DNA of 64,000 bases. Origin: Ricordea florida (taxonomy: Eukaryota; Cnidaria; Anthozoa; Corallimorpharia; Ricordeidae). Below are positions 22,639 to 38,185 of this stretch, piece by piece (the stretch's first letter is position 1; every line of letters starts with the position of its first letter). Made by a program: the position numbers and the translations under genes. Under the pieces are notes generated by a model. The model was not told the origin of the DNA. It did no database searches and saw only the letters and a list, made by a program, of their open reading frames with translations. Where the stretch lies: NCBI GenBank assembly GCA_949710005.1, contig OX453278.1, positions 6,808,597 to 6,872,596 on the forward strand, in the 5' to 3' direction.

Positions 22639-22676
22639 ATTGTATTTTACTGATCACCGTGATATCTTTAAATTTG

Positions 22677-23912
22677 TTACTTTCTCTTCTTTTTTATACT
22701 TTCCACAAAATATAGAACCACAGCCATTATCAAAAGCCAAGCATTTTCACCTAAAAATCCAATAACCTGACCTGCGGTTTTGAATAGAAAGCTAACTATT
22801 GCTCCAACCATTCCTGGCAATATTTCACCCAGTTTTTTACCTATAGTTTTCAAACCATTACTAACACCCTTTCCCAAAGCAGATAAACCCTTTGAAAGAT
22901 TAGAAACTATAACCCCAATGATGGCACCTACCGCACTTAGAACAGAAAAAACTGTAAAACCATACTTTTTGAATATATACTTTAATCTCTCCCGTAACGG
23001 TAAATTTTTAATTATTTCATCTTTTCGACCCTCAATATCTGATAATTGTTCTTCACTTGAAATTGTTTTATTACTAAGTCGTTCATTTAATTTATCAACC
23101 TCAGATTTTAATCGTTCATTGCTTTGTTCTAACTTTGATAAATTGGATTTACCCTTCTTAAGTTTGTCTATTTCTTCTTTGTATAATTTTACCTCTTCCA
23201 AAAGTTTTTCTGCTTGTATTTTTAATTCTATATTCTGTTTAACGGTTTGATCGAAAAGGCTTTTATTTTGGGCTTTTTGTACCTGCTGTCTCTCAATGAA
23301 TTCCCTAAGTTCTTTTTCTCTTTCCACATATCGTTCAATCTCCAGCGGATATACTTCTGCTGTTGCTTTCAATCCTTGCAATGCATTATCTAATTCATTA
23401 TTTACTTCAATAGATTTCCTCAATTCTAACTGGGTATTATTATATTTTTCCAACATTGTTTCATAATCAGCGCCCAGTTCTTTTCTAAATGTTTTTGGTA
23501 AATTTTCTGTATTACGAATCCCATTTTCATCAACTAATGTATGCCACACATTATTACCTGCGGTACTTAATTTTCCTTCTATGCTACCATTTTCTCCAAA
23601 CCGCACATTAAATGCGCCGTCATTGGGATCGTAATTTGGGTAATAACGTTTGAGTTCTTGCCTAGCTTCTCTCATTTTATCATATTCTTCATCTCTCCCC
23701 CCAGGGGCCCCATCCTCATATTTATCCCATTTAGCCCGACTTTTTTCTTCTGAATTCTGCTTTTTATAATCATCATAACCAGGATAATCTTGTTCAAGGG
23801 TTGTAGATGTGTTTGTGGTTTGATAAAATGGGTTATCATCCCAATCCAAATCATCATCATCATCATCATCAGATCTTTTTGGAAAATCTTCTAATGGTAT
23901 TTCTTCTTCCAT
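22677..23912 (-). CDS. Acidic coiled-coil membrane protein, 411 aa (outer)
   Basis: The N-terminus is acidic with an Asp run (residues about 16-22). A long coiled coil spans roughly 150-300. The C-terminal about 90 residues hold three hydrophobic segments (near VFSVLSAVGAIIGVIV, MVGAIVSFLFKTAG and AWLLIMAVVLYFVE) and end in a basic KKKRK tail. It is homologous to 32770-33948 in the inner element. It may link an internal membrane to the capsid or core; this is inference only. Confidence 0.7.
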   Translation of the reverse strand: MEEEIPLEDFPKRSDDDDDDDLDWDDNPFYQTTNTSTTLEQDYPGYDDYKKQNSEEKSRAKWDKYEDGAPGGRDEEYDKMREARQELKRYYPNYDPNDGAFNVRFGENGSIEGKLSTAGNNVWHTLVDENGIRNTENLPKTFRKELGADYETMLEKYNNTQLELRKSIEVNNELDNALQGLKATAEVYPLEIERYVEREKELREFIERQQVQKAQNKSLFDQTVKQNIELKIQAEKLLEEVKLYKEEIDKLKKGKSNLSKLEQSNERLKSEVDKLNERLSNKTISSEEQLSDIEGRKDEIIKNLPLRERLKYIFKKYGFTVFSVLSAVGAIIGVIVSNLSKGLSALGKGVSNGLKTIGKKLGEILPGMVGAIVSFLFKTAGQVIGFLGENAWLLIMAVVLYFVESIKKKRK

Positions 23913-23935
23913 GATTTTTTACTAATCAGAAAGAA

Positions 23936-23944
23936 ATCTTTAGA
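23936..23944 (-). promoter_or_regulatory. Core-gene motif ATCTTTAGA upstream of the 411-aa gene
   Basis: About 25 bp upstream of the ATG at 23912. Matching sites lie at 20325, 21932, 22664, 32052, 32756 and 33973, each about 20-35 bp before a minus-strand core gene. Confidence 0.55.
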
Positions 23945-24007
23945 TCCCCTAGAGTTGAAAGTAAAAAATGATTTAAAAGAAAAAATATAAAAGTAAAAAA
24001 AAATAAA

Positions 24008-24829
24008 ATGATGAACGAAAATACTCAATTAATTGATATTAATAATTATAATCCCCAAAAAAGTATGATCTTTTCTAAACCAATTTTAGGTGAAGTTCCA
24101 GATAAAAAGCCAAAAGTAGAATTTAGGAGAATTAAAATTTCTACAAAAAATGAAGATGGAACTAAAGGAGAATTAGTTATTCCAACTGGCCGTTTGTATT
24201 CATTTGGAGTTTCTGAAAGTTTTTCAACTTATTCTTTTCCTTTATGTCTATGGAGTGGAAATAGACCCACTAATGAAGAGAAAAAATGGATAGAAAAATT
24301 TGATCAAATAGTAGATTGTTGCATTGATCATATTATTGAAAATAAAGAAGAAATTGATAGATTTGAGTTGAAAAGATCTGATCTCACCAAAACAAAGGGG
24401 GGTTTTAATCCTCTATATTGGAAAATGGAAAAAATTGAAGATGGTAAAAACAAACCTTATATCCAAAAAGTTCCTGATAGAGGACCAACATTATATCCTA
24501 AATTAATTTCATACAAAAAAGGAGAATTTCTTACAAAATTTTATGATATTAGAAGTGAGGATTGCAATGAAACAATAAACCCCAAAGATTTAATCAATAA
24601 AGGTTGCCACGCAGAGTGTTCAATCAAAATTGAATCAATATTTATTGGTGCTCGTATTTCATTGCAAGTAAAACTTTATGATGCTCTTGTTGAAACGAAA
24701 AAAGAAATTAAAAGATTAGCCCCACGAAAAAAATATAATCAAGAAGTAATTATTTCTGACGGTGAATCTGCTTCTTCCCATATTGGTTATGATGAATATG
24801 AAGATTCTGATCATGGGAGTCTCATGTAA
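24008..24829 (+). CDS. 273 aa cargo protein (outer), possibly SSB-like
   Basis: A soluble protein on the strand opposite to the core block, in the slot between the 411-aa and 130-aa genes. The stretch FGVSESFSTYSFPLCLW, the nearby PTNEEKKWIEKFDQIVDCC and the later HAECSIKIESIFIG recall uncharacterised virus proteins of the DUF5871 / putative ssDNA-binding type, but I cannot verify this. The C-terminus is acidic (DGESASSHIGYDEYEDSD), as in many SSBs. The inner element has an unrelated 87-aa gene in the same slot, so this is exchangeable cargo. Confidence 0.55.
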   Translation: MMNENTQLIDINNYNPQKSMIFSKPILGEVPDKKPKVEFRRIKISTKNEDGTKGELVIPTGRLYSFGVSESFSTYSFPLCLWSGNRPTNEEKKWIEKFDQIVDCCIDHIIENKEEIDRFELKRSDLTKTKGGFNPLYWKMEKIEDGKNKPYIQKVPDRGPTLYPKLISYKKGEFLTKFYDIRSEDCNETINPKDLINKGCHAECSIKIESIFIGARISLQVKLYDALVETKKEIKRLAPRKKYNQEVIISDGESASSHIGYDEYEDSDHGSLM

Positions 24830-24851
24830 ACCAAAATAATAAATATACTTG

Positions 24852-24883
24852 TGTTATATAACCAAATTACTGGTTACATAACA
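24852..24883. terminator. 32-bp convergent-gene hairpin, copy 2
   Basis: Arms TGTTATATAACCA and TGGTTACATAACA, between the 273-aa gene (+) and the 130-aa gene (-). Confidence 0.7.
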
Positions 24884-24893
24884 ACATAATAAT

Positions 24894-25286
24894 TTATAAT
24901 ATTTTACTTACAGCGTAACCTAAACCCAACATTCCGGCTCCAACATATACCATTTCCCCAGTCTTTTGGTCATCGCTTGGTTTGTAATAATCAGAGAATT
25001 TTGGTTCTTCCATTTCCCCGTACAATTCAAAAGCCTGATTTGTAGCTGAAATATTTTTTGATGCTTGATATTTTTCATCTTTTTTCTTCATTTTCCAATC
25101 AAGCATTTTTTGTCTTTTTTCCTGATATTCTGCGTAATCTCTTTGATATTTTTCCATTGCTTTATCGTGTCGTATTTTTTCTGTATCCACTTTATTCCCT
25201 GTAAGATATTTTGCAAGAATATTTCCGCCGGTAAATGCCGTTGCATTCAATATAGCCCCACCAATCATCATCGCTATTGTTGCCAT
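24894..25286 (-). CDS. Small membrane protein, 130 aa (outer)
   Basis: An N-terminal hydrophobic Gly/Ala stretch (about 1-25), a highly charged central helix (about 38-75) and a C-terminal hydrophobic segment VYVGAGMLGLGYAVSKIL. It is closely matched by 34350-34742 in the inner element. It is only 4 bp from the next gene upstream. Probably a virion membrane protein; function unknown. Confidence 0.7.
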   Translation of the reverse strand: MATIAMMIGGAILNATAFTGGNILAKYLTGNKVDTEKIRHDKAMEKYQRDYAEYQEKRQKMLDWKMKKKDEKYQASKNISATNQAFELYGEMEEPKFSDYYKPSDDQKTGEMVYVGAGMLGLGYAVSKIL

Positions 25287-25290
25287 AATT

Positions 25291-25509
25291 TTATTTTGGT
25301 AAAATCTTTTGATCCTCTAAATATGTTTTTAGATACATACTTCCGGATAATACAGCAACCCATTTTGCATAATTTGTAATACTTGAGGATGGGTCGCTCA
25401 AAAATGATTCTTTCATTACCTTTTTAGCCACATAACCAACCCCAGCCCCTAATCCGATAAGTACCGCTGAATCAGTTACAGTTTTCACAAGTTTATTTTC
25501 GCTTGACAT
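25291..25509 (-). CDS. Small two-helix membrane protein, 72 aa (outer)
   Basis: Two hydrophobic stretches (around AVLIGLGAGVGYVAKK and YAKWVAVLSGSMYLKTY). It is almost identical to 34747-34965 in the inner element, which shows strong constraint despite its size. Function unknown. Confidence 0.7.
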   Translation of the reverse strand: MSSENKLVKTVTDSAVLIGLGAGVGYVAKKVMKESFLSDPSSSITNYAKWVAVLSGSMYLKTYLEDQKILPK

Positions 25510-25510
25510 G

Positions 25511-25563
25511 ATTTTTTACTACATCAGTAAGAAACTTTTAAATAACTTTATGTAGTAAAAAAT
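25511..25563. promoter_or_regulatory. Perfect 14-bp inverted repeat between tandem genes
   Basis: ATTTTTTACTACAT (25511-25524) and ATGTAGTAAAAAAT (25550-25563). It lies after the 144-aa gene and directly before the ATG of the 72-aa gene, with an AAACTTTTAAATAAC loop. It may both end the upstream transcript and frame the promoter. Confidence 0.55.
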
Positions 25564-25572
25564 AATTTATAA

Positions 25573-26007
25573 TTATTCCATTCCTAAAGATTTTGAGGTT
25601 AAATGCAATGGAATTTTTGAAGGTTGGGGTATTTGTGGAACTTGTGATAAATCAGGTATCCTATTAGAATATTCAACCCTAGCTTTTTCCTTATATCTCA
25701 TAAAAAGATCAAATGCTGTAAACCCCAATCCAACAACAGATAAAACAGTAGTAAAAGATAACTCTGGAAGCCATGATTTATATCTATTATTTGTCTTTTC
25801 TTGATTATACCCCATTTCTACATTTTCGTTTTGCGTCTCTCGTTCCATCTCCCTAGCTAATGCTTCTTTTGCTTTTTTATTATATTCAGCTAATTTTTTA
25901 CCAGCTGCGACTTTTTTAGGATCTTTCTCCCTCTTTTTAGTATCTTTATTTTCAGGTGTGGGATCAGCCGTAATTTGTTCAACTTCTACTTTAGATTGTT
26001 CAGACAT
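25573..26007 (-). CDS. Lys-rich single-pass membrane protein, 144 aa (outer)
   Basis: The N-terminal half is charged with a conserved block DPKKVAAGKKLAEYNKKAKE. A hydrophobic segment LSFTTVLSVVGLGFTAFDLF lies at about 86-105. A Pro-rich tail ends in LTSKSLGME. The inner homologue is 35011-35433. The basic block could contact DNA or capsid; function unknown. Confidence 0.7.
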   Translation of the reverse strand: MSEQSKVEVEQITADPTPENKDTKKREKDPKKVAAGKKLAEYNKKAKEALAREMERETQNENVEMGYNQEKTNNRYKSWLPELSFTTVLSVVGLGFTAFDLFMRYKEKARVEYSNRIPDLSQVPQIPQPSKIPLHLTSKSLGME

Positions 26008-26044
26008 TGTTATTTAGATGCTACAAATAAGTTTTTAGATCTGT

Positions 26045-26605
26045 TTAATATACAGTATCAATACCCTCAGTAGATTGCTTAGTTTCCTGATCAGTTGTGT
26101 TAGAATTTACTGGTTCTTCTCTTGAAAATTGTTGATTTTTGTTGAATTTAACGTGTTTAGCTACTTGAAATAGTCCGCTAGCAAGTGCTGCCAATCTTCC
26201 TGCTTTCAATGCTAATAACCCAACAATGTTTGTTAATTCACGATTTACCAAATCATCATTCTTCAAATCATTGCAAAGAGATTCTATATCATCAACCGGA
26301 ACTAAATATGAAATAAGTTTAGAAACTAATTGAAGGGATGAATCTACTAATCCCCCATTAATTTTCTTACCCATTACTGCTTGATAACGATTAAAATACT
26401 TTTCAACATCTTTTTCAGATAATTTCTTTATATCACCCAGACTCATTTCAACCCCCAAATATTCTTTTGTTGTTCCTAAGGCTGCGAGAATGGCAAGTGA
26501 TTCTTGTTTTATTTCAAGATCCTCACTTTGATTGGTATCATTTTTTAACTCAGCTTTTTCTGTTCCTCCCTGTGGTTGGTCAATGTAATCTTCAATATTA
26601 GACAT
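26045..26605 (-). CDS. Conserved helical protein, 186 aa (outer)
   Basis: An acidic N-terminus, then helical segments with the conserved motif YFNRYQ(A/S)VMGKKINGGLVD and a moderately hydrophobic LTNIVG(L/F)LALK(A/S)GRLAALASG helix. It lies 6 bp from the ATPase gene. The inner counterpart is 35471-36052. Unknown function; tight linkage to the packaging ATPase suggests an assembly or packaging partner (inference). Confidence 0.65.
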   Translation of the reverse strand: MSNIEDYIDQPQGGTEKAELKNDTNQSEDLEIKQESLAILAALGTTKEYLGVEMSLGDIKKLSEKDVEKYFNRYQAVMGKKINGGLVDSSLQLVSKLISYLVPVDDIESLCNDLKNDDLVNRELTNIVGLLALKAGRLAALASGLFQVAKHVKFNKNQQFSREEPVNSNTTDQETKQSTEGIDTVY

Positions 26606-26611
26606 CTTTTG

Positions 26612-27253
26612 TTAAATCACTTCTGGAATCTCTAAATAGCAATTAAATGGGTATCGCAAACTCAAACATAACCTAGAATATTTTTCAGTTTTAAGGAGTT
26701 TTATAAACTTTTTACCTATTTCATAATCCAAATCACCACCATAATCTTCAAAAAACATTTTCATACCTTTCTGCGATGGATTATGGAAAGTAACAACACA
26801 GGCTACATTTTCCCTGAATGGTTTTGCTATTGATGTTAATTGCTGGGTTAAAACCCACATTGATAAACCATGATGCCTTCCGGAGAATGCTAAATCAATA
26901 AACTTGTTTGATCGTTTTTTCAGATCATTCGAAACAGCACAATCATCTAAAATTATTAATGTATTTGTTCCAGAAAACAAAGTTTGGCAATCATTTAACA
27001 ATTCATTGATCTCATCAATGTTACTTGCATCAGGTGACAATCTATAGAAATGTTTATCTCCTAGAGCAAAGTTATGATAGGTTTTATTTTTAGCATAAGT
27101 TGGGCATATTAAAACAATATATTCAAAAACTTTTCGAAATGGACCGCGGAGCTGTTCAATTAGGTACTTTGTTTTTCCACAATTTGTGGGTCCTGTTATA
27201 ATACAATGGAATGGTATTTTATCTCGTAAATCTTCCATAATTTTTTGTATCAT
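26612..27253 (-). CDS. A32/FtsK-type genome-packaging ATPase (outer)
   Basis: A 213 aa P-loop ATPase with Walker A GPTNCGKT (21-28), Walker B LIILDDCA (99-106) and a sensor-like VLTQQ. This is the FtsK-HerA packaging ATPase fold typical of Polintons and related double-jelly-roll viruses, and it would drive DNA into the procapsid. It lies directly downstream of the major capsid gene. An in-frame second Met (M6) could also be the start. Intact. Confidence 0.92.
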   Translation of the reverse strand: MIQKIMEDLRDKIPFHCIITGPTNCGKTKYLIEQLRGPFRKVFEYIVLICPTYAKNKTYHNFALGDKHFYRLSPDASNIDEINELLNDCQTLFSGTNTLIILDDCAVSNDLKKRSNKFIDLAFSGRHHGLSMWVLTQQLTSIAKPFRENVACVVTFHNPSQKGMKMFFEDYGGDLDYEIGKKFIKLLKTEKYSRLCLSLRYPFNCYLEIPEVI

Positions 27254-27277
27254 AACATTATGTTTTTAGATTCTCGA

Positions 27278-27488
27278 TCAGTACTTAATTGATCTCAAAC
27301 TTGAATTCATAATCTCCATCATTGCATCTGCTACAACAAACATATGACAAGTTACGGTTCCAGATCCGCTTTGTTTCCTTTTAATTTCTATTTTTACACC
27401 ATCATGCGTATTATTTAGAGCAAGTCCGCCGCCATGAATACCATTATCTGGATGAGTTCTAGTATCAACCCAAAGAGCAAACTTATCC
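27278..27488 (-). pseudogene. Major capsid protein, C-terminal fragment (outer, cut off by the inner element)
   Basis: Encodes the last about 70 residues of the double-jelly-roll capsid protein, ending SLRSIKY and a stop. It is separated from its N-terminal part (44152-45182) by the whole inner element. The fragment is in the frame the N-terminal part would need, and the summed length is one codon shorter than the intact inner capsid gene. Without a start of its own it should not be expressed as capsid. Confidence 0.92.
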
Positions 27489-27493
27489 GCGTA
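27489..27493. repeat. Target site duplication of the inner Polinton, left copy (GCGTA)
   Basis: GCGTA is directly followed by the inner TIR and is repeated at 44152-44156. The intact homologous site in the inner capsid gene contains a single GCGTA followed by AAATTC. Confidence 0.88.
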
Positions 27494-27987
27494 AGAGAGG
27501 GAGAAAACTGTGGTTTTGGGACACAGGAATTTTGAGAAGGATTTTTTAGCTTATAAGCTAAATTGGGTTTTCAAATTTGATCAGGAATTTAATCAAGGAT
27601 TTATTGGGTTAACCAAGCCTCGGTCAAGCTCAGTCAAACCTTTGCAAAGACTAAGCCAAGCTCAGTAAAGCCTGCGACAGTTTTGGGACACAGGAATTTT
27701 GTCAAGGATTTCTTAGCTTGCAACCCACTGCGTCAAGTTTCTGCAAAGTTTCGGCCAAGATAGGGGCCGACAGGCGGAGCGAGCGAAGCGAGCGGAGGGC
27801 GACGACCAGCCAGCGGCAAAGTCTATGCAAAGTTCCGACGAAGCCAATACCAAAACTTCGTCAAGTCTAAGTCAAGCCTGTGATGAGATCTAGGACACGG
27901 GCAATATTTCTCGGACAGGGGAAAAAATTTGAAATGTGGTTTAAAGGTTTGATGATATTTACAAAAGTAATTATGGATCAGCTAAGA
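27494..27987 (+). repeat. Inner element TIR, left
   Basis: Matches 43658-44151 in inverted orientation over 494 bp with no difference noticed by eye. It contains two direct copies of a TTTTGGGACACAGGAATTTT block (near 27514 and 27680) and a GC-rich tract around GCGAGCGAAGCGAGCGG. It ends inside codon 5 of the terminal genes at both sides. Confidence 0.93.
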
Positions 27988-28542
27988 GATTTATATCTTT
28001 ATGAACTAAAAATAATAGCGAAAGATCTAGAAATCAAAGGAAGAGGAAAAATGAGCAAGCAAGAATTAATCGGTGAAATTACAAATTTTAAAGATGAGGA
28101 AATTGCCGAATTAATTGAAAAAGTTATCCCTATTAGCAGAGTTATTTGTGATCATGGGAAAATAAAAAAATTTTGTATCAAATGTTATGGGTATAATTGT
28201 GCTCACAATAAATATAAATATCGTTGCAAGGAATGTGGAGGATCACAAATATGCGAACACAATAAACAAAAACAATGTTGCAAGGAATGTGGAGGATCAC
28301 AAATATGCGAACATGATAAATATAAGCGACAGTGCAGAGAATGTGGAGGATCACAAATATGCGAACATGATAAATATAAGCATCAGTGCATAGAATGCAG
28401 AGGTTCGCGAATATGTGAGCATAATAAACAAAAACAACAATGTAAGGAATGTGGTGGATCGCAAATTTGTGAACACGGCAAGAAAAAAGCTTCTTGCGGG
28501 GATTGTGGAAAAATAAAATCAAATTTAAAAGAAAAAATATAA
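27973..28542 (+). CDS. SAP-like / CKECGGSQIC zinc-repeat protein (inner)
   Basis: 189 aa from the ATG at 27973; an open in-frame extension begins at 27883 within the TIR. The SAP-like N-terminus (MDQLRDLYLYELKIIAKDLE) resembles the outer counterpart. About six 18-residue CKECGGSQICEH-type repeats follow, one per 54 bp at DNA level. The last unit ends ASCGDCGKIK. Conserved Cys and His spacing suggests zinc binding. The first four residues are shared with the polymerase at the other end because both genes start inside the TIR. Function unknown. Confidence 0.78.
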   Translation: MDQLRDLYLYELKIIAKDLEIKGRGKMSKQELIGEITNFKDEEIAELIEKVIPISRVICDHGKIKKFCIKCYGYNCAHNKYKYRCKECGGSQICEHNKQKQCCKECGGSQICEHDKYKRQCRECGGSQICEHDKYKHQCIECRGSRICEHNKQKQQCKECGGSQICEHGKKKASCGDCGKIKSNLKEKI

Positions 28543-28554
28543 ATAAAAGAAAAG

Positions 28555-29199
28555 ATGGAATACCAAAGTTTCAAAACAGAATTAGTGTTTTTTTATGAAT
28601 TTATTAATAATAAAAGGCTTAATTTTTGTGATTTCATAAATGAAATAAAAGAAGATATAATGAAAAAAATATCAAAAAATAGAAAATTTATTGATTATCA
28701 CAACAAGCCATATATTCCTGAAAAAGAAAAAAATATTTCTTTTACAATTAAATTAATTCAAGATAAAAATCTTGTTTATCCAAATGATATTTTTTTAAAA
28801 ACAGACAGGAATTTTGATATAGATGGTTTAAGCGAAGTAGATTTTGTAAAAGCAGCGTTAAATTGCGCAGATGATGAACTTTTATCTTTTGTAACAGGCT
28901 ATAATAAGTCAAATAATTTTTATTTTGATGCTTTCTATAAAAATGATTCAGAATATCATGTAAAGTATTCATATAATCCAGTTAAAATTTATAAGTTTGA
29001 TGAAAAATTTCATGTTAAAAAAATAGAAATGGGAATATTTTTAAATTACTTTAAGATAATTCATAAAGAGAAATTTTTTAGAAGATTGCATGATGAAATA
29101 ATGGAAGTGGCTTGGCACCCAACTAGATATTTAGATTGGTGTGTTGATTTTGAGGAGTTAAAGTTTTTGAAAGAAGAGGTATGGGGTGAAGAAGATTAA
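28555..29199 (+). CDS. 214 aa cargo protein with C-terminal WHPxR motif (inner)
   Basis: No homologue in the outer element. The C-terminus has EVAWHPTRYLDWCVDFEE, a motif I associate with hypothetical proteins of giant viruses; this is a recollection that needs a search. The rest is Lys/Asn/Phe-rich with no recognised domain. It follows the zinc-repeat gene by 12 bp on the same strand, so the two may be co-transcribed. It ends at the hairpin at 29203. Confidence 0.65.
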   Translation: MEYQSFKTELVFFYEFINNKRLNFCDFINEIKEDIMKKISKNRKFIDYHNKPYIPEKEKNISFTIKLIQDKNLVYPNDIFLKTDRNFDIDGLSEVDFVKAALNCADDELLSFVTGYNKSNNFYFDAFYKNDSEYHVKYSYNPVKIYKFDEKFHVKKIEMGIFLNYFKIIHKEKFFRRLHDEIMEVAWHPTRYLDWCVDFEELKFLKEEVWGEED

Positions 29200-29202
29200 T
29201 TA

Positions 29203-29234
29203 TGTTATATAACCCAAGTATTGGTTACATAACA
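29203..29234. terminator. 32-bp convergent-gene hairpin, copy 3
   Basis: Arms TGTTATATAACC and GGTTACATAACA, between the 214-aa gene (+) and the penton-like gene (-). Confidence 0.7.
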
Positions 29235-29239
29235 AAAAT

Positions 29240-29875
29240 TTATCTAAATCTTAAACTAAAAGTTATTGGCAATCCTCTTAAATCAAGTTTTTCCCAATTA
29301 TTGTCTAAGATAGTTAAATCAAAGTGGTTTATGAGACTCTCATATTTTTGAACTGGAATTGTTGGATAATCCTTTGAGGGTATGTTTGCTAGTAAATTAG
29401 ATGGCGTGAGTTTCACAAGTTCACCATATTTAGTGTTATTCATATATGACGACTTATTATCCACTAAACTACACATAAGCATCAAAGGCTCCCTAATCTG
29501 CAAATTTAAGGGGTATAATTTACCAGGATTTATAACTTCAGGCACTCCTAAACCAACCGCTAATCCTCTCGTAATTATAACTTTGTAGTTCTTATTTGAA
29601 TAAAGATAGTCAACAGTATCACTCTCAATTATTGTTATTTTTTCCTGAGCAGTATCATTAAGAAAGATTGATTGAATATTACAAAGAGAATATGTGCCGG
29701 GCTGAATTTTTATGATGACTTGATTCTTATCATTGAATAATGTCTGTTGGTCCTTGAAATTAATCAACTTTTTGAGCTTTAAATTGCAATCCAGGAGCTG
29801 TATCTCCCGAAGATTTTTCAGCGGCGGATCTAAATAAACCCTTGTTTTTGAATCATACATTGTAATACTTAACAT
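29240..29875 (-). CDS. Penton-like minor capsid protein (inner)
   Basis: 211 aa, clearly homologous along its length to 19668-20300, with conserved blocks DPPLKNLREIQLLDCN, LAVGLGVPEVINPGKLYP and KYESLINHFDLTILD. A beta-rich single-jelly-roll minor capsid role is inferred from size, position and strand pattern. Divergent from the Rpb7-like gene, whose ATG lies 41 bp away. Confidence 0.6.
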   Translation of the reverse strand: MLSITMYDSKTRVYLDPPLKNLREIQLLDCNLKLKKLINFKDQQTLFNDKNQVIIKIQPGTYSLCNIQSIFLNDTAQEKITIIESDTVDYLYSNKNYKVIITRGLAVGLGVPEVINPGKLYPLNLQIREPLMLMCSLVDNKSSYMNNTKYGELVKLTPSNLLANIPSKDYPTIPVQKYESLINHFDLTILDNNWEKLDLRGLPITFSLRFR

Positions 29876-29877
29876 TT

Positions 29878-29888
29878 TGTTTTGATTA
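29878..29888. repeat. Direct repeat TGTTTTGATTA, left of the Rpb7-like gene
   Basis: The same 11-mer recurs at 30385-30395. In the outer element the site exists once (20304-20314) with no gene inserted. Confidence 0.55.
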
Positions 29889-29915
29889 AATTATATTAGT
29901 TTTTAGATTAATAAA

Positions 29916-30377
29916 ATGGAAACTACTATAATTAAAAGGAGAATTTATCTTGAACCAAAATATTTGGATAGTAATATTATGCTTCATCTTTTGAGAAAAA
30001 TTAATAAGAAAATGAGCGGAGAAATTGATAAAGATTATGGATATTTTATTTCCGCGAATCGGATAGTAAAGATTTTGGATAATTCAGATACTTTTTTCTT
30101 TCTAGAGATTGAGGTGAAAACATATAAACCTAAAATTGGGCAAAAAGTTAAAGGATTTGTATGTATGATTTATAAGGATGGATTTCTTGTAAATGTTTTT
30201 GAAAGAATGATGGTTCTAGTTCCAAGTATTTTTATAAAAGATTATGTTTTTGATGAAAATAAGAATACTTTTGAAAATGATAATATCAGAATTGGAATGG
30301 GAGATAAAATTAAAGTAAAAATAAAACAATGTAGATTTCACGAAGAAAAATTTGAGTGCATTGGCTTTTTAGCTTAA
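29916..30377 (+). CDS. RNA polymerase Rpb7-like protein (N-terminal RNP-like plus S1/OB domain), cargo of inner element
   Basis: 153 aa. The first half has the Rpb7 pattern, RRIYLEPKYLDSNI then KDYGYFISANRIVKI. The second half has the S1/OB core, YKPKIGQKVKGFVCMIYKDG through VLVPSIFI, and then the Rpb7-type FDENKN, GDKIKVKIK and CIGFL. Length and domain order match archaeal/eukaryotic/NCLDV Rpb7, which forms the RNA-polymerase stalk with Rpb4 and binds nascent RNA. No other polymerase subunit is in the window. The encoded protein might join or compete within host Pol II, or aid late transcription; this is inference. Absent from the outer element, and flanked by an 11-bp direct repeat. Confidence 0.85.
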   Translation: METTIIKRRIYLEPKYLDSNIMLHLLRKINKKMSGEIDKDYGYFISANRIVKILDNSDTFFFLEIEVKTYKPKIGQKVKGFVCMIYKDGFLVNVFERMMVLVPSIFIKDYVFDENKNTFENDNIRIGMGDKIKVKIKQCRFHEEKFECIGFLA

Positions 30378-30383
30378 AATATT

Positions 30384-30425
30384 ATGTTTTGATTAATCTT
30401 TCAATTATTCAAGTAATCAAAACAT
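30384..30425. terminator. Perfect 12-bp inverted repeat between Rpb7-like and 532-aa genes
   Basis: ATGTTTTGATTA (30384-30395) and TAATCAAAACAT (30414-30425), at a convergent junction. It is the counterpart of 20304-20350 in the outer element and the likely 3'-end signal for both genes here. Confidence 0.6.
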
Positions 30426-32023
30426 TAACGAAATAAAAACCAGGATAATAATGCTCCTCCAATTGCAAAAATAAAAAGATTAGTTTGGTGAGAAGATGTT
30501 TCCACATTACTTATTTGAACTTCATCCTTATTTTGTGTTTTTTCAATACTTGGTTGTGGTTTGGTATTTAATAAAACCTTTGAAGTTCCCAAACTGTGTT
30601 TTATTCCGACTGTTTTTGTTTCGTTGTTTACTGAATTATTTACTCCAAATTTCATATCATCTGTTACTCTTTTCAAAGCATTATTATACCCAACGATACT
30701 TTCGGTATTTATTATTAAATTGCTTGGCATTAACCAAACTCCAGGAGCAACAGCCAAGTCAAGCCGAGATTTTGATTCTTGTACCGCCAATTGGTATTTT
30801 TGAATAGACTTTGCAACATCATTTTCAATCACAGTACTTTCAAATAATTTTCCAAAATTTTGTTGCGTTTCGATTCCTCCTCCACCTTTATTAACAATTG
30901 AAGTTCTAGTATTTACTTGCGCTCCTAAAATACAATAAACAAAAGCTTCAATTGATCTATTTATTCTTCCTAAACCAGCCATTGTTAATCCTTTGCAATA
31001 CTCTGGTATAAACCAAGCATATTGAAAATCAGCAAAGCTATCATTTCGCAGCATAGATATTAAATTTCCGTCAATTTTTTTACCCCCATCATCTGAAAAT
31101 CTATTTCCATAGCTAGGCCAAATGTTGGCTTCTGTATCGTAATTTCTTATTTTTCTGACATTTTGTGATCCTCCACCTTTTCCTTGATATTCTTGTGATC
31201 CGGGTACTTTATCTTTATCAACATATCCTTTTCCGTAATCAATGAAAACATCTCCCACTCCATGATTTGCACCTCCCTTAAATCTAAAATCAGCTAAAGG
31301 TTTATTCAATCCCTTGAAATCTTGATCATTACTTAATCCAAATTCAGCGCATAATCTATTATAAGCATTTTTGTTGTAAATATTATTTTTTGCGGAAAAA
31401 GTATCTTTATCTGGAAGAGGAACTTTTAGCTCATATATTATTCTTCTTATCGTAAAGTAAATGTGAAATATAAAAAAACTTTTTACTACTTTTGGGTAAT
31501 TCAAAATATCACCTAAACCTATTCCGCAGCCGGCTGTTGCGCACCAAACAGCCATGTTTAATTGCTGCGGCCATTGACTAATATTTGGTTTATTCAACCA
31601 AGCTCTAGCTTCTTTTCCGCTTTTAAGTTCTACGGTTTGATTTTTGAATATATTCTTCATTGGGGCTGTGAAACTATCTTTTTCTGAAACATAAATATTC
31701 AAAAATATCAGCATTTTTGTTACATCGTTTGCGAATTGATCGAAACTAACTCCTGGTATTGGATAAGTTTTTGTTGTTAATGTTAAACTTTTTGGAAACG
31801 AACTTTTTTTAACGGTTGCGTTTAATCCCAAATCTTCCCATAATGATAGTTTCAACTTATTTGAAAGATTCTCGGTCCATGTTTCTCCAGAAGGATCATC
31901 GTCGGACATAATAGTTGTGTTATTAACTTTCCATTTAATATAACCGCCGAATGGATCAGCCACAAATGAAAATTTATTGAGATCGGCTTTTGGGTAACGA
32001 GTTGTGAAATCACTAAATAACAT
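30425..32023 (-). CDS. Conserved C-terminally anchored virion-type protein, 532 aa (inner)
   Basis: Start chosen at 32023 (MLFSDFTTRYPKADL) because it aligns with the outer start MLFGDFRNRYPKANL; the frame stays open upstream to 32122. It shares the blocks WCATAGCGI, YFTIRRIIYELKVPLPD and APGVWLMPSNLIINTES with 20351-21904. The middle region (about residues 215-320) is more variable, and this version is longer there. A C-terminal hydrophobic anchor ends LLSWFLFR. Function unknown, probably structural. Confidence 0.75.
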   Translation of the reverse strand: MLFSDFTTRYPKADLNKFSFVADPFGGYIKWKVNNTTIMSDDDPSGETWTENLSNKLKLSLWEDLGLNATVKKSSFPKSLTLTTKTYPIPGVSFDQFANDVTKMLIFLNIYVSEKDSFTAPMKNIFKNQTVELKSGKEARAWLNKPNISQWPQQLNMAVWCATAGCGIGLGDILNYPKVVKSFFIFHIYFTIRRIIYELKVPLPDKDTFSAKNNIYNKNAYNRLCAEFGLSNDQDFKGLNKPLADFRFKGGANHGVGDVFIDYGKGYVDKDKVPGSQEYQGKGGGSQNVRKIRNYDTEANIWPSYGNRFSDDGGKKIDGNLISMLRNDSFADFQYAWFIPEYCKGLTMAGLGRINRSIEAFVYCILGAQVNTRTSIVNKGGGGIETQQNFGKLFESTVIENDVAKSIQKYQLAVQESKSRLDLAVAPGVWLMPSNLIINTESIVGYNNALKRVTDDMKFGVNNSVNNETKTVGIKHSLGTSKVLLNTKPQPSIEKTQNKDEVQISNVETSSHQTNLFIFAIGGALLSWFLFR

Positions 32024-32077
32024 CTTATTCTTTTGTGTTTCAAAAAGTGTGATCTTTAAATCTTTAAGAATAAGATG
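32021..32077. promoter_or_regulatory. Inverted repeat around the start of the 532-aa gene
   Basis: CATCTTATTCTT (32021-32032) and AAGAATAAGATG (32066-32077), with ATCTTTAAA at 32052-32060 in the loop. Same layout as 21902-21958. Confidence 0.6.
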
Positions 32078-32125
32078 TTCCTGCAAAACAATTACAGCCA
32101 ACTTCGGTTTTCTCATATACAAGTT

Positions 32126-32731
32126 TTAATGACCTTTCTCTCCTACGAGTTCTTTTAAAAGATCTTCTCGAACTTTCTTCCTTATTATACTCATGTCGAA
32201 ATTTTTTTGGTCTTCTTTTCTGAACTTTTGCCGAACTTCTTGTTTCAATTTCTGAAACTTTTCCAATTCAGCTAAAATTATGGAAAATTCTTGATCTGAT
32301 ATTACATTATCTTTCATAGCCTTAGAGACCAAATCTGTAATGGTGTTTAATTTAGATTTTGCAATAGCGACGGTTTGCTCGTGTTTACTAACTTTGCTGG
32401 AAAGATTTTTAGATACAATTCCAAATCCGATTGAGAAAACTCCAAAAAATCCACCAACTACACCCAAAGGAACACCAACAATAGCGCCGAAACCTGTGAG
32501 AGAAGTTCCTAACCCGCTTGCTGATAGAAGAACAGAAATAAATCCTCCAGAAACACTAATTTTTGCGCATATTCCTCTTGCTCTATTATATTTTTTCCTC
32601 ACTTCTTCGTAATGTTTAATTTCCTTCTCGAGATTTTGCAAAACTTCACTCGATTTCTGCAATCTGAAATTAATTGTACTTTCTTCATTTTTTGGTTGTA
32701 ATTGAGGATAAATTCCATTGTATTCACCCAT
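32126..32731 (-). CDS. Membrane protein with coiled coil, 201 aa (inner)
   Basis: Homologue of 22021-22638: shared FRLQKSSEVLQNLEKEIKHY helix, Gly-rich hydrophobic centre and the LLKEL(T/V)GEKGH end. ATCTTTAGA lies at 32756-32764 upstream. Confidence 0.7.
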   Translation of the reverse strand: MGEYNGIYPQLQPKNEESTINFRLQKSSEVLQNLEKEIKHYEEVRKKYNRARGICAKISVSGGFISVLLSASGLGTSLTGFGAIVGVPLGVVGGFFGVFSIGFGIVSKNLSSKVSKHEQTVAIAKSKLNTITDLVSKAMKDNVISDQEFSIILAELEKFQKLKQEVRQKFRKEDQKNFDMSIIRKKVREDLLKELVGEKGH

Positions 32732-32769
32732 ATTGTTTTACTGGTCATAAAGGATATCTTTAGATTAGG

Positions 32770-33948
32770 TTACTTACTTTTCTTTTTCATACTTTCCACA
32801 AAATATAAAACTACTGCCATGATCAAAAGCCAAGCATTCTTTCCTAAAAACCCTATCGCCTCACCAGCTGTTTTAAAAAGAAAGCTAACTATAGCTCCCA
32901 CCATTCCAGGTAATATTTGCCCTAATTTTTTCCCTAAAGTTTTTAATCCATTACCAACCTTTCCTCCCAACGCGGATAAACCTTTGGAAAGACTAGAAAC
33001 GATAACACCAATTACTGCACCAACAGCGCTTAAAACCGCAAAAACAGTAAATCCATACTTTTTGAATATATACTTTAATTTCTCCCTAAGTGGCAAATTT
33101 TTGAAGATTTCTTCTCTTCTGCTTTCAATATCTGATAATTGTTCTGCGTTTGAAATTTCTTTATTTCTAATTCGTTCATTTAATTTATCAACCTCGGATT
33201 TTAATCGTTCATTGCTTTGTTTTAATTTTGATTCATTTGATTTATCCTTCTTATATTTGTCTATTTCTTCTTTGTATAATTTTACCTCTTCCAAAATTTT
33301 CTCCGCTTGTATTTTTAATTCTATATTCTGTTTAACGGTTTGATCGAAAAGACTTTTAGTCTCTGCTTTTTTTTCCTGTTGCCTCCCAATGAATTCTCTA
33401 AGTTCTTTTTCTCTTTCTTCGTATTTACTAATTTCCAGAGGATATACTTCTACTGCCGCTTTCAATCCTTGCAAAGCATTATCTAATTCCTTAAGTTTTT
33501 CACCGGACTGTTCTAATTCTGAGGTGGCATTATTGTATTTTTCCAACATGCTTTCATAATCAGCACCCAGTTCTTTTCTCATTGCTTTTGGCAAATCTTC
33601 AACTCTAAGATTTTTATCTTTATCAATTATGATATGCTTGACGGAATTTCCCCTATTACTTAATCTCCCAGTTATACTCCCATCTTCTTCAAATTCAACA
33701 TTAAATGTTGCATCCCTCGGATTGAATTCTGGAAAATAACGTTTGAGTTCTTGGCCCGCTTCTCGCCTCCTATCATATTCCTCATCTCTAAAATTATCCG
33801 CCTCCTCCGCAGGCCGATCCAATTCAGCCGGCTCGGGTTGGTAATAATCCCAATCAGGATATTCCGGCTGGTTTGTGGATGTAATCGTATCCGTTTCTTC
33901 ATCATCATTATTTCTTGCAAAATCTTCCATTTGCATATCTTCTTCCAT
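32770..33948 (-). CDS. Acidic coiled-coil membrane protein, 392 aa (inner)
   Basis: Start set at 33948 (MEEDMQMEDF) to match the outer MEEEIPLEDF; an in-frame ATG five codons upstream at 33963 is also possible. Central coiled coil, then three C-terminal hydrophobic segments (VFAVLSAVGAVIGVIV, MVGAIVSFLFKTAGEAIGFL, AWLLIMAVVLYFVE) and a basic end. Homologue of 22677-23912. ATCTTTAGA at 33973-33981. Confidence 0.7.
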   Translation of the reverse strand: MEEDMQMEDFARNNDDEETDTITSTNQPEYPDWDYYQPEPAELDRPAEEADNFRDEEYDRRREAGQELKRYFPEFNPRDATFNVEFEEDGSITGRLSNRGNSVKHIIIDKDKNLRVEDLPKAMRKELGADYESMLEKYNNATSELEQSGEKLKELDNALQGLKAAVEVYPLEISKYEEREKELREFIGRQQEKKAETKSLFDQTVKQNIELKIQAEKILEEVKLYKEEIDKYKKDKSNESKLKQSNERLKSEVDKLNERIRNKEISNAEQLSDIESRREEIFKNLPLREKLKYIFKKYGFTVFAVLSAVGAVIGVIVSSLSKGLSALGGKVGNGLKTLGKKLGQILPGMVGAIVSFLFKTAGEAIGFLGKNAWLLIMAVVLYFVESMKKKSK

Positions 33949-34038
33949 GATTTTTTTACTCATCAGCGATAAATCTTTAGACTTCTTAGGGTTGAAAAAA
34001 TTGATATTTAAAAAGAAAACATGTAAATAAAATCAAAT

Positions 34039-34302
34039 ATGAGTAACGAAGAACAAGAATACAAAACTATCAGAATTAGTACTAATGATTTAATTAATTA
34101 CGCCGGGAAATTAGGAATAAATATTTCTCCTAGCGATGCTAATAGATGTTTAGGTGCAACGAAGAAAGTAGTGAATAACAGTATAGACCCATTAAAACTC
34201 AAAAGAGAACTTAGGGATAAATTATGCAAAATACATGGAATAGAAAATGATAATAGCATCGATGATAACGAAATGCTTAAGAAACTATACTCGAAAAAAT
34301 AA
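34039..34302 (+). CDS. 87 aa cargo protein (inner), unknown
   Basis: Small, charged and helical (KTIRISTNDLINYAGKLGIN...), with no recognised domain. It occupies the slot that holds the 273-aa gene in the outer element and is followed by the same hairpin. Its conserved setting between promoter-like sequence and terminator hairpin supports a real gene. Confidence 0.55.
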   Translation: MSNEEQEYKTIRISTNDLINYAGKLGINISPSDANRCLGATKKVVNNSIDPLKLKRELRDKLCKIHGIENDNSIDDNEMLKKLYSKK

Positions 34303-34311
34303 ATATACTTA

Positions 34312-34343
34312 TGTTATATAACCCAATTACTGGTTACATAACA
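34312..34343. terminator. 32-bp convergent-gene hairpin, copy 4
   Basis: Arms TGTTATATAACC and GGTTACATAACA, between the 87-aa gene (+) and the 130-aa gene (-). Confidence 0.7.
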
Positions 34344-34349
34344 ATATTT

Positions 34350-34742
34350 TTATAATAATTTACTTACCGCATACCCTAAACCCAACATCCCGGCTCCGAC
34401 ATATACCATTTCTCCAGTCTTTTGTTCTTCGCTTGGTTTGTAATAATCAGAGAATTTTGGTTCATTCATTTGCCCGTACAATTCAAAAGCCTGATTTGTC
34501 GCCGAAATATTTTTTGATGCTTGGTATTTTTCATCTTTTTTCTTATTTTCCCAATCAAGCATTTTTTGTCTGTTTTCCTGATATTCTTGATAATCTTTTT
34601 CGTATTTTTCCATTGCCTTATCATGTCGTATTCTTTCTGTATCCACTCTATGGCCTAGAATTTTTTGGGCAATAATATTTCCGCCAGTAAATGCCGTTGC
34701 ATTCAATATAGCCCCACCAATCATCATTCCTATTGCTGCCAT
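34350..34742 (-). CDS. Small membrane protein, 130 aa (inner)
   Basis: Homologue of 24894-25286, with the same N-terminal Gly/Ala hydrophobic stretch, charged helix and C-terminal VYVGAGMLGLGYAVSKLL segment. Same length as the outer copy. 4 bp from its neighbour. Confidence 0.7.
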   Translation of the reverse strand: MAAIGMMIGGAILNATAFTGGNIIAQKILGHRVDTERIRHDKAMEKYEKDYQEYQENRQKMLDWENKKKDEKYQASKNISATNQAFELYGQMNEPKFSDYYKPSEEQKTGEMVYVGAGMLGLGYAVSKLL

Positions 34743-34746
34743 AATT

Positions 34747-34965
34747 TTATTTAGGTAAAATCTTTTGATCCTCTAAATATGTTTTAAGATACATGCTTCC
34801 GGATAATACCGCGACCCATTTTGCGTAATTCGTAATACTCGAGGACGGATCACTCAAAAATGATTCTTTCATCATCTTTTTAGCTACATACCCAACTCCA
34901 GCCCCCAATCCGATAAGTACCGCTGAATCAGTTACAGTTTTCACAAGTTTGTTTTCGGTTGACAT
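34747..34965 (-). CDS. Small two-helix membrane protein, 72 aa (inner)
   Basis: Differs from the outer copy (25291-25509) at only two residues by eye (SSEN/STEN and KKVMK/KKMMK). Two hydrophobic helices; unknown role, likely a particle membrane protein. Confidence 0.7.
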   Translation of the reverse strand: MSTENKLVKTVTDSAVLIGLGAGVGYVAKKMMKESFLSDPSSSITNYAKWVAVLSGSMYLKTYLEDQKILPK

Positions 34966-35010
34966 AATTTTTTACTGTACCATTGAGAAACTTTTAAATG
35001 ACTTTTGAGA

Positions 35011-35433
35011 TTATTCCATTCCTAAAGATTTTGGAGTTAAATGCAATGGAATTTTTGCGGGCTGGGGTATTTGTGGAACTTGTGATAAGTCGGGTATCCT
35101 ATTTTTATATTCTGTATATCCATCTCTAGCTTTTTCCCGATATCTCATAAAAAGATCAAATGCTGTAAACCCCAATCCAATAACGGATAAAACAGTAGTA
35201 AAAGATAACTCGGGCAACCAGGATTTCGCAACTCGCCCCGCAGGGACTGGATCATCTTCCTCTTCGCGTTTCATCTCCCTGGCTAATGCTTCTTTTGCTT
35301 TTTTATTATATTCTGCTAATTTCTTACCAGCCGCAACCTTTTTAGGATCCTTATCCTTCTTTCTATTAGCAATATTCTCAGGTATTGGATCAGAAGTAAT
35401 TCTCTCAACGTTTTGCTCATTTTGTTCAGACAT
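35011..35433 (-). CDS. Lys-rich single-pass membrane protein, 140 aa (inner)
   Basis: Homologue of 25573-26007 with the conserved DPKKVAAGKKLAEYNKKAKE block, one hydrophobic segment (LSFTTVLSVIGLGFTAFDLF) and a Pro-rich end terminating in LTPKSLGME. Confidence 0.7.
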   Translation of the reverse strand: MSEQNEQNVERITSDPIPENIANRKKDKDPKKVAAGKKLAEYNKKAKEALAREMKREEEDDPVPAGRVAKSWLPELSFTTVLSVIGLGFTAFDLFMRYREKARDGYTEYKNRIPDLSQVPQIPQPAKIPLHLTPKSLGME

Positions 35434-35470
35434 TGTTATTTAGATGCTACAGATAAGTTTTTAGATCTGT

Positions 35471-36052
35471 TTAATACACAGTATCAACTCCGTCAGTAGA
35501 TTGCTTAGTATTATGCTCCAGCTCTGCTGGGGAGGCGCTAGCGCGCCGATCAGTTGTGCTATCATTTACTGGTTCTTGTTTATTTTTGTTGAATTTTATG
35601 TGTTTTGCTACCTGGAATATCCCGCTAGCAAGTGCTGCCAGTCTTCCTGATTTCAACGCCAAGAACCCGACAATGTTTGTTAGTTCGCGATTAACCAAAT
35701 CATCATTCTTCAGATCATTGCAAAGAGCTTCTATATCATCCACTGGAACTAAATAAGAAATAACTTTGGAAACCAATTGAAGGGATGAATCTACCAATCC
35801 ACCGTTAATTTTCTTTCCCATTACAGACTGATATCGATTAAAATATTTTTCTACATCACGTTCTGATAATTTTTTTACATCACCCAGACTCATATCAACC
35901 CCTAAATATTCTTTTGTTGTTCCAAGCACTGCGAGAATGGCTAGCGATTCTTGTTTGATTTCAAGATCCTCACTTTGATTAGTATCATTTTTTACCCCAG
36001 TTTTTTCTGTTCCTCCCTGAGGTTGATCAATGTAATCTTCTGGCTTTGTCAT
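35471..36052 (-). CDS. Conserved helical protein, 193 aa (inner)
   Basis: Start set at the ATG at 36052 (MTKPEDYIDQPQGG), which matches the outer start; the frame is open further upstream into the ATPase gene. Homologue of 26045-26605. Five base pairs separate it from the ATPase stop. Unknown function. Confidence 0.65.
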   Translation of the reverse strand: MTKPEDYIDQPQGGTEKTGVKNDTNQSEDLEIKQESLAILAVLGTTKEYLGVDMSLGDVKKLSERDVEKYFNRYQSVMGKKINGGLVDSSLQLVSKVISYLVPVDDIEALCNDLKNDDLVNRELTNIVGFLALKSGRLAALASGIFQVAKHIKFNKNKQEPVNDSTTDRRASASPAELEHNTKQSTDGVDTVY

Positions 36053-36057
36053 CTTTG

Positions 36058-36699
36058 TTAAATCACTTCGGGTATCTCTAAATAGCAATTAAATGGATAT
36101 CGCAAAGATAAACATAACCTAGAATATTTTTCAGTTTTCAGGAGTTTTGCAAACTTTTTACCCAATTCATAATCCAAATCGCCGCCGTAATCTTCGAAAA
36201 ACATTTTCATACCTTTCTGCGACGGATTATGAAAAGTAACAACACATGCCACATTTTCTCGGAATGGTTTTGCTATGGATGTTAATTGCTGGGTTAGAAC
36301 CCAAACTGATAATCCGTGATGTCTTCCGGAGAACGCTAAATCTATAAATTTATTGGATCTTTTCTTCAGATCGGAGGATACAGCGCAATCATCAAGAATT
36401 ATTAGCGTATTGGTTCCGGAGAATAAAGTTTGACAATCAGTTAGTAACTCATTAATATCCTCAACGTTACTTGCATCTGGAGATAATACATAAAAATGTT
36501 TATCCCCAAAGGCAAAATTATGATAAGTTTTATTTTTAGAATAAGTCGGGCAAATTAAAACAATATATTCAAAAACTTTCCGGAATGGGCCTCGGAGCTG
36601 TTCAATTAAATACTTTGTTTTTCCACAATTTGTGGGCCCTGTTATAATACAATGAAATGGTATTTTATCTCTCAAATCTTCCATGATTTTTTGTATCAT
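36058..36699 (-). CDS. A32/FtsK-type genome-packaging ATPase (inner)
   Basis: 213 aa with Walker A GPTNCGKT, Walker B LIILDDCA and VLTQQ, nearly the same protein as 26612-27253. It lies 4 bp after the major capsid gene. Predicted motor for DNA packaging. Confidence 0.93.
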   Translation of the reverse strand: MIQKIMEDLRDKIPFHCIITGPTNCGKTKYLIEQLRGPFRKVFEYIVLICPTYSKNKTYHNFAFGDKHFYVLSPDASNVEDINELLTDCQTLFSGTNTLIILDDCAVSSDLKKRSNKFIDLAFSGRHHGLSVWVLTQQLTSIAKPFRENVACVVTFHNPSQKGMKMFFEDYGGDLDYELGKKFAKLLKTEKYSRLCLSLRYPFNCYLEIPEVI

Positions 36700-36703
36700 A
36701 ACA

Positions 36704-37948
36704 TCAGTACTTTATAGATCTCAAACTGGAATTCATAATCTCCAGCATTGCGTCGGCAACGACAAACATATGGCAAGTTATGGTTCCAGATCCGCTTTGT
36801 TTCCTTTTAATTTCTATTTTTACACCATCATGGGTATTATTTAGAGCCAATCCTCCGCCGTGAATGCTATTATCCGGATGGGTTCTAGTATCAACCCAAA
36901 GAGCAAACTTATCCGCGTAAAATTCTTTTTCTTTCAAAGAAATCTGCAAACCATCATCCCTGTGAAATCTCTTTTTCACGGATTCCCAAAGATCGGAAGG
37001 AATCATTCCTCTAGAGTATATTCTATTTGGAACTCCATCCACATCTATTTCTACGGAAGATATACCCGGGTTATAAAAATTTTCAGAATCCCTTGCTCCT
37101 TCAGCCTGAGCTGTGAAAAACAAAAACAATATTCCAGTCATTGATCTTCTTGGGAGATTAATGTGCTGATTAATAACACCATCTCCGCCAACGGAAAAGG
37201 TAAAAGTTTTGTGAAGAGTAATATTCTCATAAAAGAAACCCTTACCAACTTGATATGCGGCTTGAGCCTCACGCGCCAAATATTCGCTAGAAATTGAGGA
37301 ATATTCTAACTCTAGATTTTTGATTGAATATGATGGTGGTTTAGTTTTATCGGAATAAATAAGAATATTATTAATTGGAGCAAGAGTAATCTCAAATATC
37401 AGATGGTTTTCTAGGGCTTTGGGGTAAAAAACACCATGATCATTTAGGATGGGGTGGTTAATTGGTATTCTATACTTTGTCCCGTGAATTCTCGCCAAAA
37501 CGATTTCTTTCTGATCTATTCCTGTTTTTGCGTCGCCAGATTTTGTTCTATGTTTTCTAATATCAAGAGAAGAAATTCCTTGTTTTAATCTATCTTCTCT
37601 TTCTTCATTGGTTAAAAATAAATCTCGATATGTTTGAAATAAATCATATCTTTGGGTATCTTGCAATGTTTCTCCTCCAAAAAGAACTTTCATTCTGGTA
37701 ACAAGATTACGACCAACGTTATTGACAAGGGTGTTATTGGCGTGCCCCTCCACATCCAAATCGAAGAGAAGAGATACACTTCCGGGGACAATAACCAAAT
37801 TCTCTGCTAATTTTGGAATATTTATATACAATGTTTCTCCTGGGCTGGCTGAAGATGGGTTGAGGGTAATTCTATTCAATGTAGATTCTGCTTTCAAACC
37901 AAAGGGTTCTTTGGGAATTCTGTTTGGATTAATTTTCTCAGACGTCAT
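36704..37948 (-). CDS. Double-jelly-roll major capsid protein (inner), intact
   Basis: 414 aa hexon-type major capsid protein. It opens MTSEKINPNRIPKEPFGL and is beta-rich throughout, with conserved VLFGGETLQDTQRYDLFQTY, NHPILNDHGVFYPKALENH and LPRRSMTGILFLF blocks. It differs from the outer N-terminal part at five of the first 119 residues. Position beside the packaging ATPase and its length fit Polinton capsid proteins, which build an icosahedral shell. The 15-bp AATTTATAAGATACT motif is just upstream. Confidence 0.88.
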   Translation of the reverse strand: MTSEKINPNRIPKEPFGLKAESTLNRITLNPSSASPGETLYINIPKLAENLVIVPGSVSLLFDLDVEGHANNTLVNNVGRNLVTRMKVLFGGETLQDTQRYDLFQTYRDLFLTNEEREDRLKQGISSLDIRKHRTKSGDAKTGIDQKEIVLARIHGTKYRIPINHPILNDHGVFYPKALENHLIFEITLAPINNILIYSDKTKPPSYSIKNLELEYSSISSEYLAREAQAAYQVGKGFFYENITLHKTFTFSVGGDGVINQHINLPRRSMTGILFLFFTAQAEGARDSENFYNPGISSVEIDVDGVPNRIYSRGMIPSDLWESVKKRFHRDDGLQISLKEKEFYADKFALWVDTRTHPDNSIHGGGLALNNTHDGVKIEIKRKQSGSGTITCHMFVVADAMLEIMNSSLRSIKY

Positions 37949-37952
37949 TGTA

Positions 37953-37967
37953 AATTTATAAGATACT
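37953..37967 (-). promoter_or_regulatory. 15-bp motif upstream of capsid gene (inner)
   Basis: AATTTATAAGATACT on the plus strand, that is AGTATCTTATAAATT toward the gene, 5 bp before the ATG. Exact copies at 38171-38185, 45186-45200 and 45404-45418. It contains a TATA-like core. Confidence 0.6.
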
Positions 37968-37978
37968 TTGGTTACCCT

Positions 37979-38167
37979 TTAAACCGGCTTCGCCTTCTCT
38001 AACTTATCAATATGTTTTAATAGACCCTCTCTCGTCTCGGGAATTAAAGTCATAATATTAAAAATTTTATCCCCATCTTCCATATATAGAATTTTTTTCC
38101 TGATAATTTTTTTCATGAGATTAATTTGGTATTCACTAAATTTTATTTCTTCTTCCGCCTCCACCAT
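37979..38167 (-). CDS. Conserved 62 aa protein (inner)
   Basis: Basic, helical and almost the same as 45212-45400 (shared KFSEYQINLMKKIIRKKILY). Divergent from the integrase with a 31-bp promoter gap. Too short to classify; conservation and placement support a real gene. Confidence 0.65.
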   Translation of the reverse strand: MVEAEEEIKFSEYQINLMKKIIRKKILYMEDGDKIFNIMTLIPETREGLLKHIDKLEKAKPV

Positions 38168-38170
38168 TTT

Positions 38171-38185
38171 AATTTATAAGATACT
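38171..38185. promoter_or_regulatory. 15-bp motif in the divergent 62-aa / integrase promoter (inner)
   Basis: AATTTATAAGATACT, exact copy, between the two start codons. Confidence 0.6.

Follow-up and report, generated by a model that had tools for sequence, protein, structure and literature searches.

The window analysed here, a stretch of 64,000 nt from the corallimorpharian Ricordea florida, contains two Polinton-type elements, one nested within the other, and an Rpb7-like gene carried by the inner one (Table 1). The inverted repeats of the inner element (27494-27987 and 43658-44151) span 494 nt and are 100% identical. Its insertion site is the capsid gene of the outer element, which it splits, and the same 5 bp, GCGTA, stand on both sides (GCGTAA if the repeat is cut elsewhere); the target-site duplication of Polintons/Mavericks is 6 bp. 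The outer repeats (18741-19173 and 50898-51331) match without a difference as two overlapping segments that are offset by one base, and the flanks have GAGGG in common. The Capsid_N matches of both elements fell below the cut-off (E 0.0092 for the inner element and 0.0004 for the outer piece). The product of the largest reading frame in Table 1 had no match in the profile libraries scanned; from motifs recognized by eye, we take it to be a protein-primed DNA polymerase B.

Table 1. Features of the nested elements, with positions in the window
Feature	Position	Strand	Basis
Outer Polinton-type element, containing the inner one	18741..51331	.	inverted repeats
DUF2738 gene, a different cargo gene (outer element)	24008..24829	+	E 9.5e-57
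Inner Polinton-type element, ~17 kb, holding rpb7	27494..44151	.	identical inverted repeats
ORF-211, conserved element gene, divergent neighbour of rpb7	29240..29875	-	ORF list; conserved in other loci
Divergent intergenic region rpb7/ORF-211, 40 nt	29876..29915	.	TCTAAAAA on the minus strand for ORF-211
Rpb7-like stalk subunit gene (rpb7), 153 aa	29916..30377	+	domain matches and fold
Hairpin TGTTTTGATTA...TAATCAAAACA at the convergent rpb7/ORF-534 junction	30385..30424	.	
ORF-534, conserved element gene, convergent neighbour of rpb7	30425..32029	-	ORF list; conserved in other loci
Pox_A32-type packaging ATPase (inner element)	36058..36699	-	Pox_A32 E 4.9e-13
Putative double-jelly-roll major capsid protein	36704..37948	-	weak Capsid_N match
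RVE-type integrase (inner element)	38199..39191	+	rve E 3.5e-9
Putative protein-primed DNA polymerase B	39149..43765	-	sequence motifs

The two elements differ in their cargo. The rpb7 gene is placed between ORF-211, 40 nt away, and ORF-534 (which starts at an upstream TTG in the ORF list, 30425-32122), and the outer element lacks it at the matching junction of 50 nt (20301-20350). Conversely, the inner element has no ORF of at least 100 aa at the place matching the outer element's DUF2738 gene. According to passages of a Hydra genome paper (PMC7642931), two Hydra species show an expansion of DUF2738 (21 and 12), and Maverick ranks among the largest DNA transposon classes; the DUF2738 of Hydra and that of the outer element may represent one kind of element gene. 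Both elements also have a gene for a Rho_N-like domain followed by Cys-rich repeats in 54-nt units (19165-19599 and 27943-28542), which in the inner element begins within the inverted repeat.

Analysis of the rpb7 product revealed a complete N-terminal SHS2/RNP tip domain followed by a C-terminal S1/OB domain (Pfam S1, E 2.9e-6, over the cut-off), the latter being the stronger single Pfam match, an arrangement characteristic of the Rpb7/Rpo7 superfamily. Scores against the curated models TIGR00448 and NF006333 (archaeal rpoE equivalog) were below their cut-offs, at 26.1 versus 124.2 and 28.4 versus 143 bits. The whole fold aligned with Pol II and archaeal chains at 16-22% identity; vaccinia chains were also matched, and the best viral fold matches were the Rpb7 homologues of large nucleocytoplasmic DNA viruses. 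The first-pass annotation had read the gene, from its letters, as an Rpb7 with both halves in order carried by a Polinton. The tip and S1 domains and the whole fold bear out the first part, and the inverted repeats, integrase and ATPase around the gene bear out the second. The presence of a full-length Rpb7-type gene in a Polinton-type element is confirmed. Among the proteins of the element that were scanned, no RNA polymerase core subunit turned up. Pfam Rpb4 matched only two stretches, on contig C1, which we took as host exons, a search in which a diverged Rpb4 partner could be missed.

The gene recurs throughout the host assembly (537.8 Mb, 48 contigs), with at least 200 loci spread over all 16 large contigs. 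With the element protein as query, the best 150 of 208 candidates were scored and all matched, at 59-100% identity, 149 of them without a stop. With human Rpb7, scoring the best 150 of 208 candidates gave 144 matches, of which six fell on host exons and 138 on copies in elements; 50 of these copies were new loci, one of which holds a stop. Both lists were ordered best match first, and broken copies may be under-counted in them. Sixty copies were read, 48 from the element-protein list (40 picked to span the identities) and 12 via the human query, two of these 12 also being in the first list. Fifty-eight are intact, with 150-155 aa; the broken ones stop after 6 codons (L039) and after 133 (L041). 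ORF-211 lies divergently upstream in 59/60 copies and ORF-534 convergently downstream in 59/60, the exceptions, within the stretches examined, being L064 and L047. The number of loci and the near constancy of the neighbours indicate a stable gene of one Polinton lineage rather than a single capture, and so answer the earlier question of recurrence in other Polintons: in one lineage of this genome, a full-length and mostly intact Rpb7-type gene occupies a fixed position.

That lineage has a wider setting. A search with ORF-211 gave 4,695 first-look candidates, and 31 of the best 150, those scored, had an rpb7 locus within 1.5 kb, so that the elements with rpb7 are one section of a far more numerous population. 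By this candidate number, thousands of Polinton-type elements are possible, which at ~17 kb each would take a large share of the 538 Mb. Among L001-L048, the identities of rpb7, ORF-211 and ORF-534 to the window copies vary independently (L045: 59% for rpb7 and 90% for ORF-211), which suggests recombination between elements.

To turn to origin, the host's own RPB7 was found on contig C13 (5773740-5776459) as six exon matches 70-89% identical to human Rpb7, its first 36 residues being 94% identical, whereas the element copies are 18-31% identical to human Rpb7 in all 58 compared. A host retrocopy is excluded by this difference, which answers the proposal of the first-pass annotation to test for an intron-containing host parent. 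Protein searches returned relatives of 151-154 aa and a larger set, mostly of 157-165 aa, on contigs of up to 163 kb; many members of this larger set carry the JGI name Rpb7 (among 120 of 148 relatives listed), and the label NCLDV-like used below reflects contig size and these names. Two proteins, P0005 and P0009, are interspersed in the tree with the copies of this genome, so that their source is probably this species or a near one; P0017, P0021, P0073, P0078, P0082, P0083, P0084 and P0090 fall outside those copies.

In a careful tree of 72 rows (16 copies, 54 of 130 proteins and two cellular sequences), the short type grouped with P0108, P0110, P0113, P0115, P0116 and P0128 at 99/98, inside other NCLDV-like rows; these six proteins are on contigs of up to 147 kb. 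A quick tree of 128 rows gave this grouping at 98. Two AU tests were run on one alternative split, with the short type and the cellular sequences on one side and every NCLDV-like row on the other; their p values were 0.206 and 0.046. The trees support giant-virus-like Rpb7s as the nearest relatives of the element protein, the AU tests leaving the rooted branching order undecided. With respect to the placement in a tree asked for at the outset, a kinship with large-DNA-virus-type and not host Rpb7 is supported. Given these p values, a transfer of rpb7 from a giant virus is favoured only.

The copies are held under purifying selection. Among the 58 intact copies, whose pairwise protein identity ranges from 50 to 100% (median 67%), dN was below dS in 28/28 disjoint pairs, with a median ratio of 0.28 and a pooled pN/pS of 0.36; copies only 50% identical to each other are still intact. 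Nei-Gojobori dN/dS medians by dS class were 0.24-0.33 for rpb7 (46 copies) versus 0.22-0.28 for ORF-211 (48 copies, one incomplete), with 14/1035 and 180/1128 pairs, respectively, lying outside the classes. The most conserved ten residues of 46 copies are residues 11-20, in the tip domain, and mean column entropy is modestly lower over residues 1-70 than over the S1 part (0.63 versus 0.78), as expected were a polymerase contact kept.

Upstream regions and gene ends of the elements have their own signals. A T[CT]TAAA[AG] box lies within 60 nt upstream of 18 of the 25 genes considered (27 listed minus two with unsure starts), at -31 to -36 in 15 of the 18, and in 5.3% of random 60-mers from the elements (18,239 used); the count is not blind, the motif having first been spotted in the same upstream regions, and the two elements are paralogous, not independent. 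The intergenic stretch between rpb7 and ORF-211 measures 37-53 nt and is well conserved in the 47 loci compared. The box is present upstream of ORF-211 in 48/48 loci and upstream of rpb7 in 0/48, which puts rpb7 in another promoter class.

Stem-loops with z <= -2.5 were detected below 9/26 gene ends tested. Seven of the nine are among the 12 ends at convergent junctions and the other two where the sibling element has its cargo gene; none occurred at the four integrase and polymerase ends tested. At the place of rpb7 the outer element retains the hairpin, and at the place of DUF2738 the inner element retains one, which hints either that the two cargo genes used to be there and were lost, or that hairpins are markers of entry sites. 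Of the 46 intact loci, 33 have a perfect 11-12-nt stem after rpb7, compared with 10% of shuffles; the left arm may run into the stop codon in some of the remaining 13. For ORF-211 the figures are 8/47 loci (17%) and 10.5% of shuffles with a perfect stem of at least 8 downstream, no clear excess by that measure. A further hairpin, GTTATRTAACC...GGTTAYATAAC, recurs at the ends of several genes in both elements (19599-19668, 24829-24894, 29199-29240, 34290-34350), and its sequence is unlike that of the hairpin after rpb7. Since the outer element has the same boxes and hairpins without rpb7, neither needs the gene in cis.

In cellular Rpb7, the tip anchors the subunit to the polymerase core and the S1 domain meets RNA. 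We hypothesize, with a probability of about 0.5, that the element protein is a lone stalk subunit which, by docking on an RNA polymerase (probably the host's Pol II), favours transcription of the element. The tip domain would dock on the core and the S1 domain would meet the emerging RNA. The core would be a foreign one, most likely that of host Pol II in the nucleus, because the scan of the element revealed no core subunit; Pol II ranks first given that the elements reside in an animal nucleus, with boxes placed where a TATA-type element could sit. The element protein would replace or supplement host Rpb4/Rpb7 on the polymerases transcribing the element, and might help initiation at the TYTAAAR boxes or termination at the hairpins of several gene ends. 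Rpo18 is the Rpb7 homologue of poxviruses, in agreement with the vaccinia chains matched by the element protein. In a poxvirus initiation complex, as described in passages of PMC12917281, the surface bound by the capping enzyme involves Rpo147 and Rpo18. A stricter version, which we regard as rather unlikely, is stalk exchange: the Polinton lineage would make a Pol II stalk of its own and thereby create an element-specific form of Pol II that would prefer TYTAAAR promoters and end transcripts at the element hairpins. If true, a single subunit would take over transcription with no viral polymerase involved.

The polymerase could instead be that of a co-infecting large DNA virus, the element using or blocking the transcription machine of its helper as a virophage would. 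We hold this to be possible, if doubtful. The nearest relatives include the Rpb7-type proteins on contigs of up to 147 kb, passages of PMC11464507 describe a giant virus encoding RPB1-2, 5-7 and 9-11, and the host genome contains seven matches to VLTF3, a late transcription factor of large DNA viruses, six over the cut-off and three of the seven with stops. However, no NCLDV capsid match over the cut-off was found in the host genome (one stood at E 0.08), and the four VLTF3 loci L066-L069, of ~3.2 kb each, were without a match to the proteins of these elements; L068 has further long ORFs. No large virus of this host came up in the analysis.

A protein that no longer touches a polymerase, for instance an mRNA stability or packaging factor, appears unlikely: S1 gives the stronger single match in Pfam, yet the tip domain is complete and at least as conserved. 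Lone Rpb7 homologues do bind RNA, which counts for such a role. That the subunit is a decoy, poisoning the host's or a rival virus's polymerase and serving no element gene, is very improbable. With no core subunit found in the element, it could act only on a foreign enzyme, but a strong host poison would be costly, if expressed, at 200 or more loci. Finally, a functionless passenger, whether a recent host retrocopy or a capture, is scarcely credible: rpb7 is missing at the outer element's junction, but the intactness of distant copies speaks against it, and the host gene and the dN/dS values refute it in the main.

Polintons are thought to rely on host transcription. Literature searches combining Polinton or Maverick with RNA polymerase subunit or Rpb7 gave no earlier report, most subscription papers and preprint servers being outside the search; one combining Maverick with Pol II, stalk and giant virus found nothing, and RPB7 with virophage matched only a Mimiviridae gene survey. 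In three Polinton-type papers, neither term counts nor passages point to an RNA polymerase subunit. Passages of PMC11253617 treat such subunits as a mark of the nucleocytoplasmic viruses whose reproduction takes place in the cytoplasm. An Rpb7 present in many copies and under selection in ~17-kb elements breaks this line between Polintons and cytoplasm-reproducing viruses, and offers a case in which the action of a single polymerase subunit on its own can be tested. It also connects Polintons and giant viruses through a gene, and the direction of that link matters for how both groups are related. The finding suggests that these virus-like elements of the host genome adjust the polymerase of the cell, or of another virus, to read their own genes.

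Among known systems, Polintons/Mavericks (adintoviruses) share the inverted repeats, RVE integrase and A32-type ATPase of the inner element, which differs in its polymerase subunit gene, none having been reported in the literature searched. Virophages and polinton-like viruses are likewise small DNA viruses, some of which parasitize giant viruses according to passages of PMC11071308. Pol II Rpb7 and archaeal Rpo7 (RpoE) have the same domains, order and whole fold as the element protein but about 171 residues instead of 153, and no Rpb4 was found in the element. The nearest sequence relatives, several JGI-named Rpb7, are of the kind found in large nucleocytoplasmic DNA viruses (iridoviruses, mimivirus relatives, poxviruses with their 18-kDa subunit, and asfarviruses); in a giant virus, as passages of PMC11464507 describe, the Rpb7 gene is accompanied by core subunits, whereas here it is a lone gene in an element of ~17 kb.
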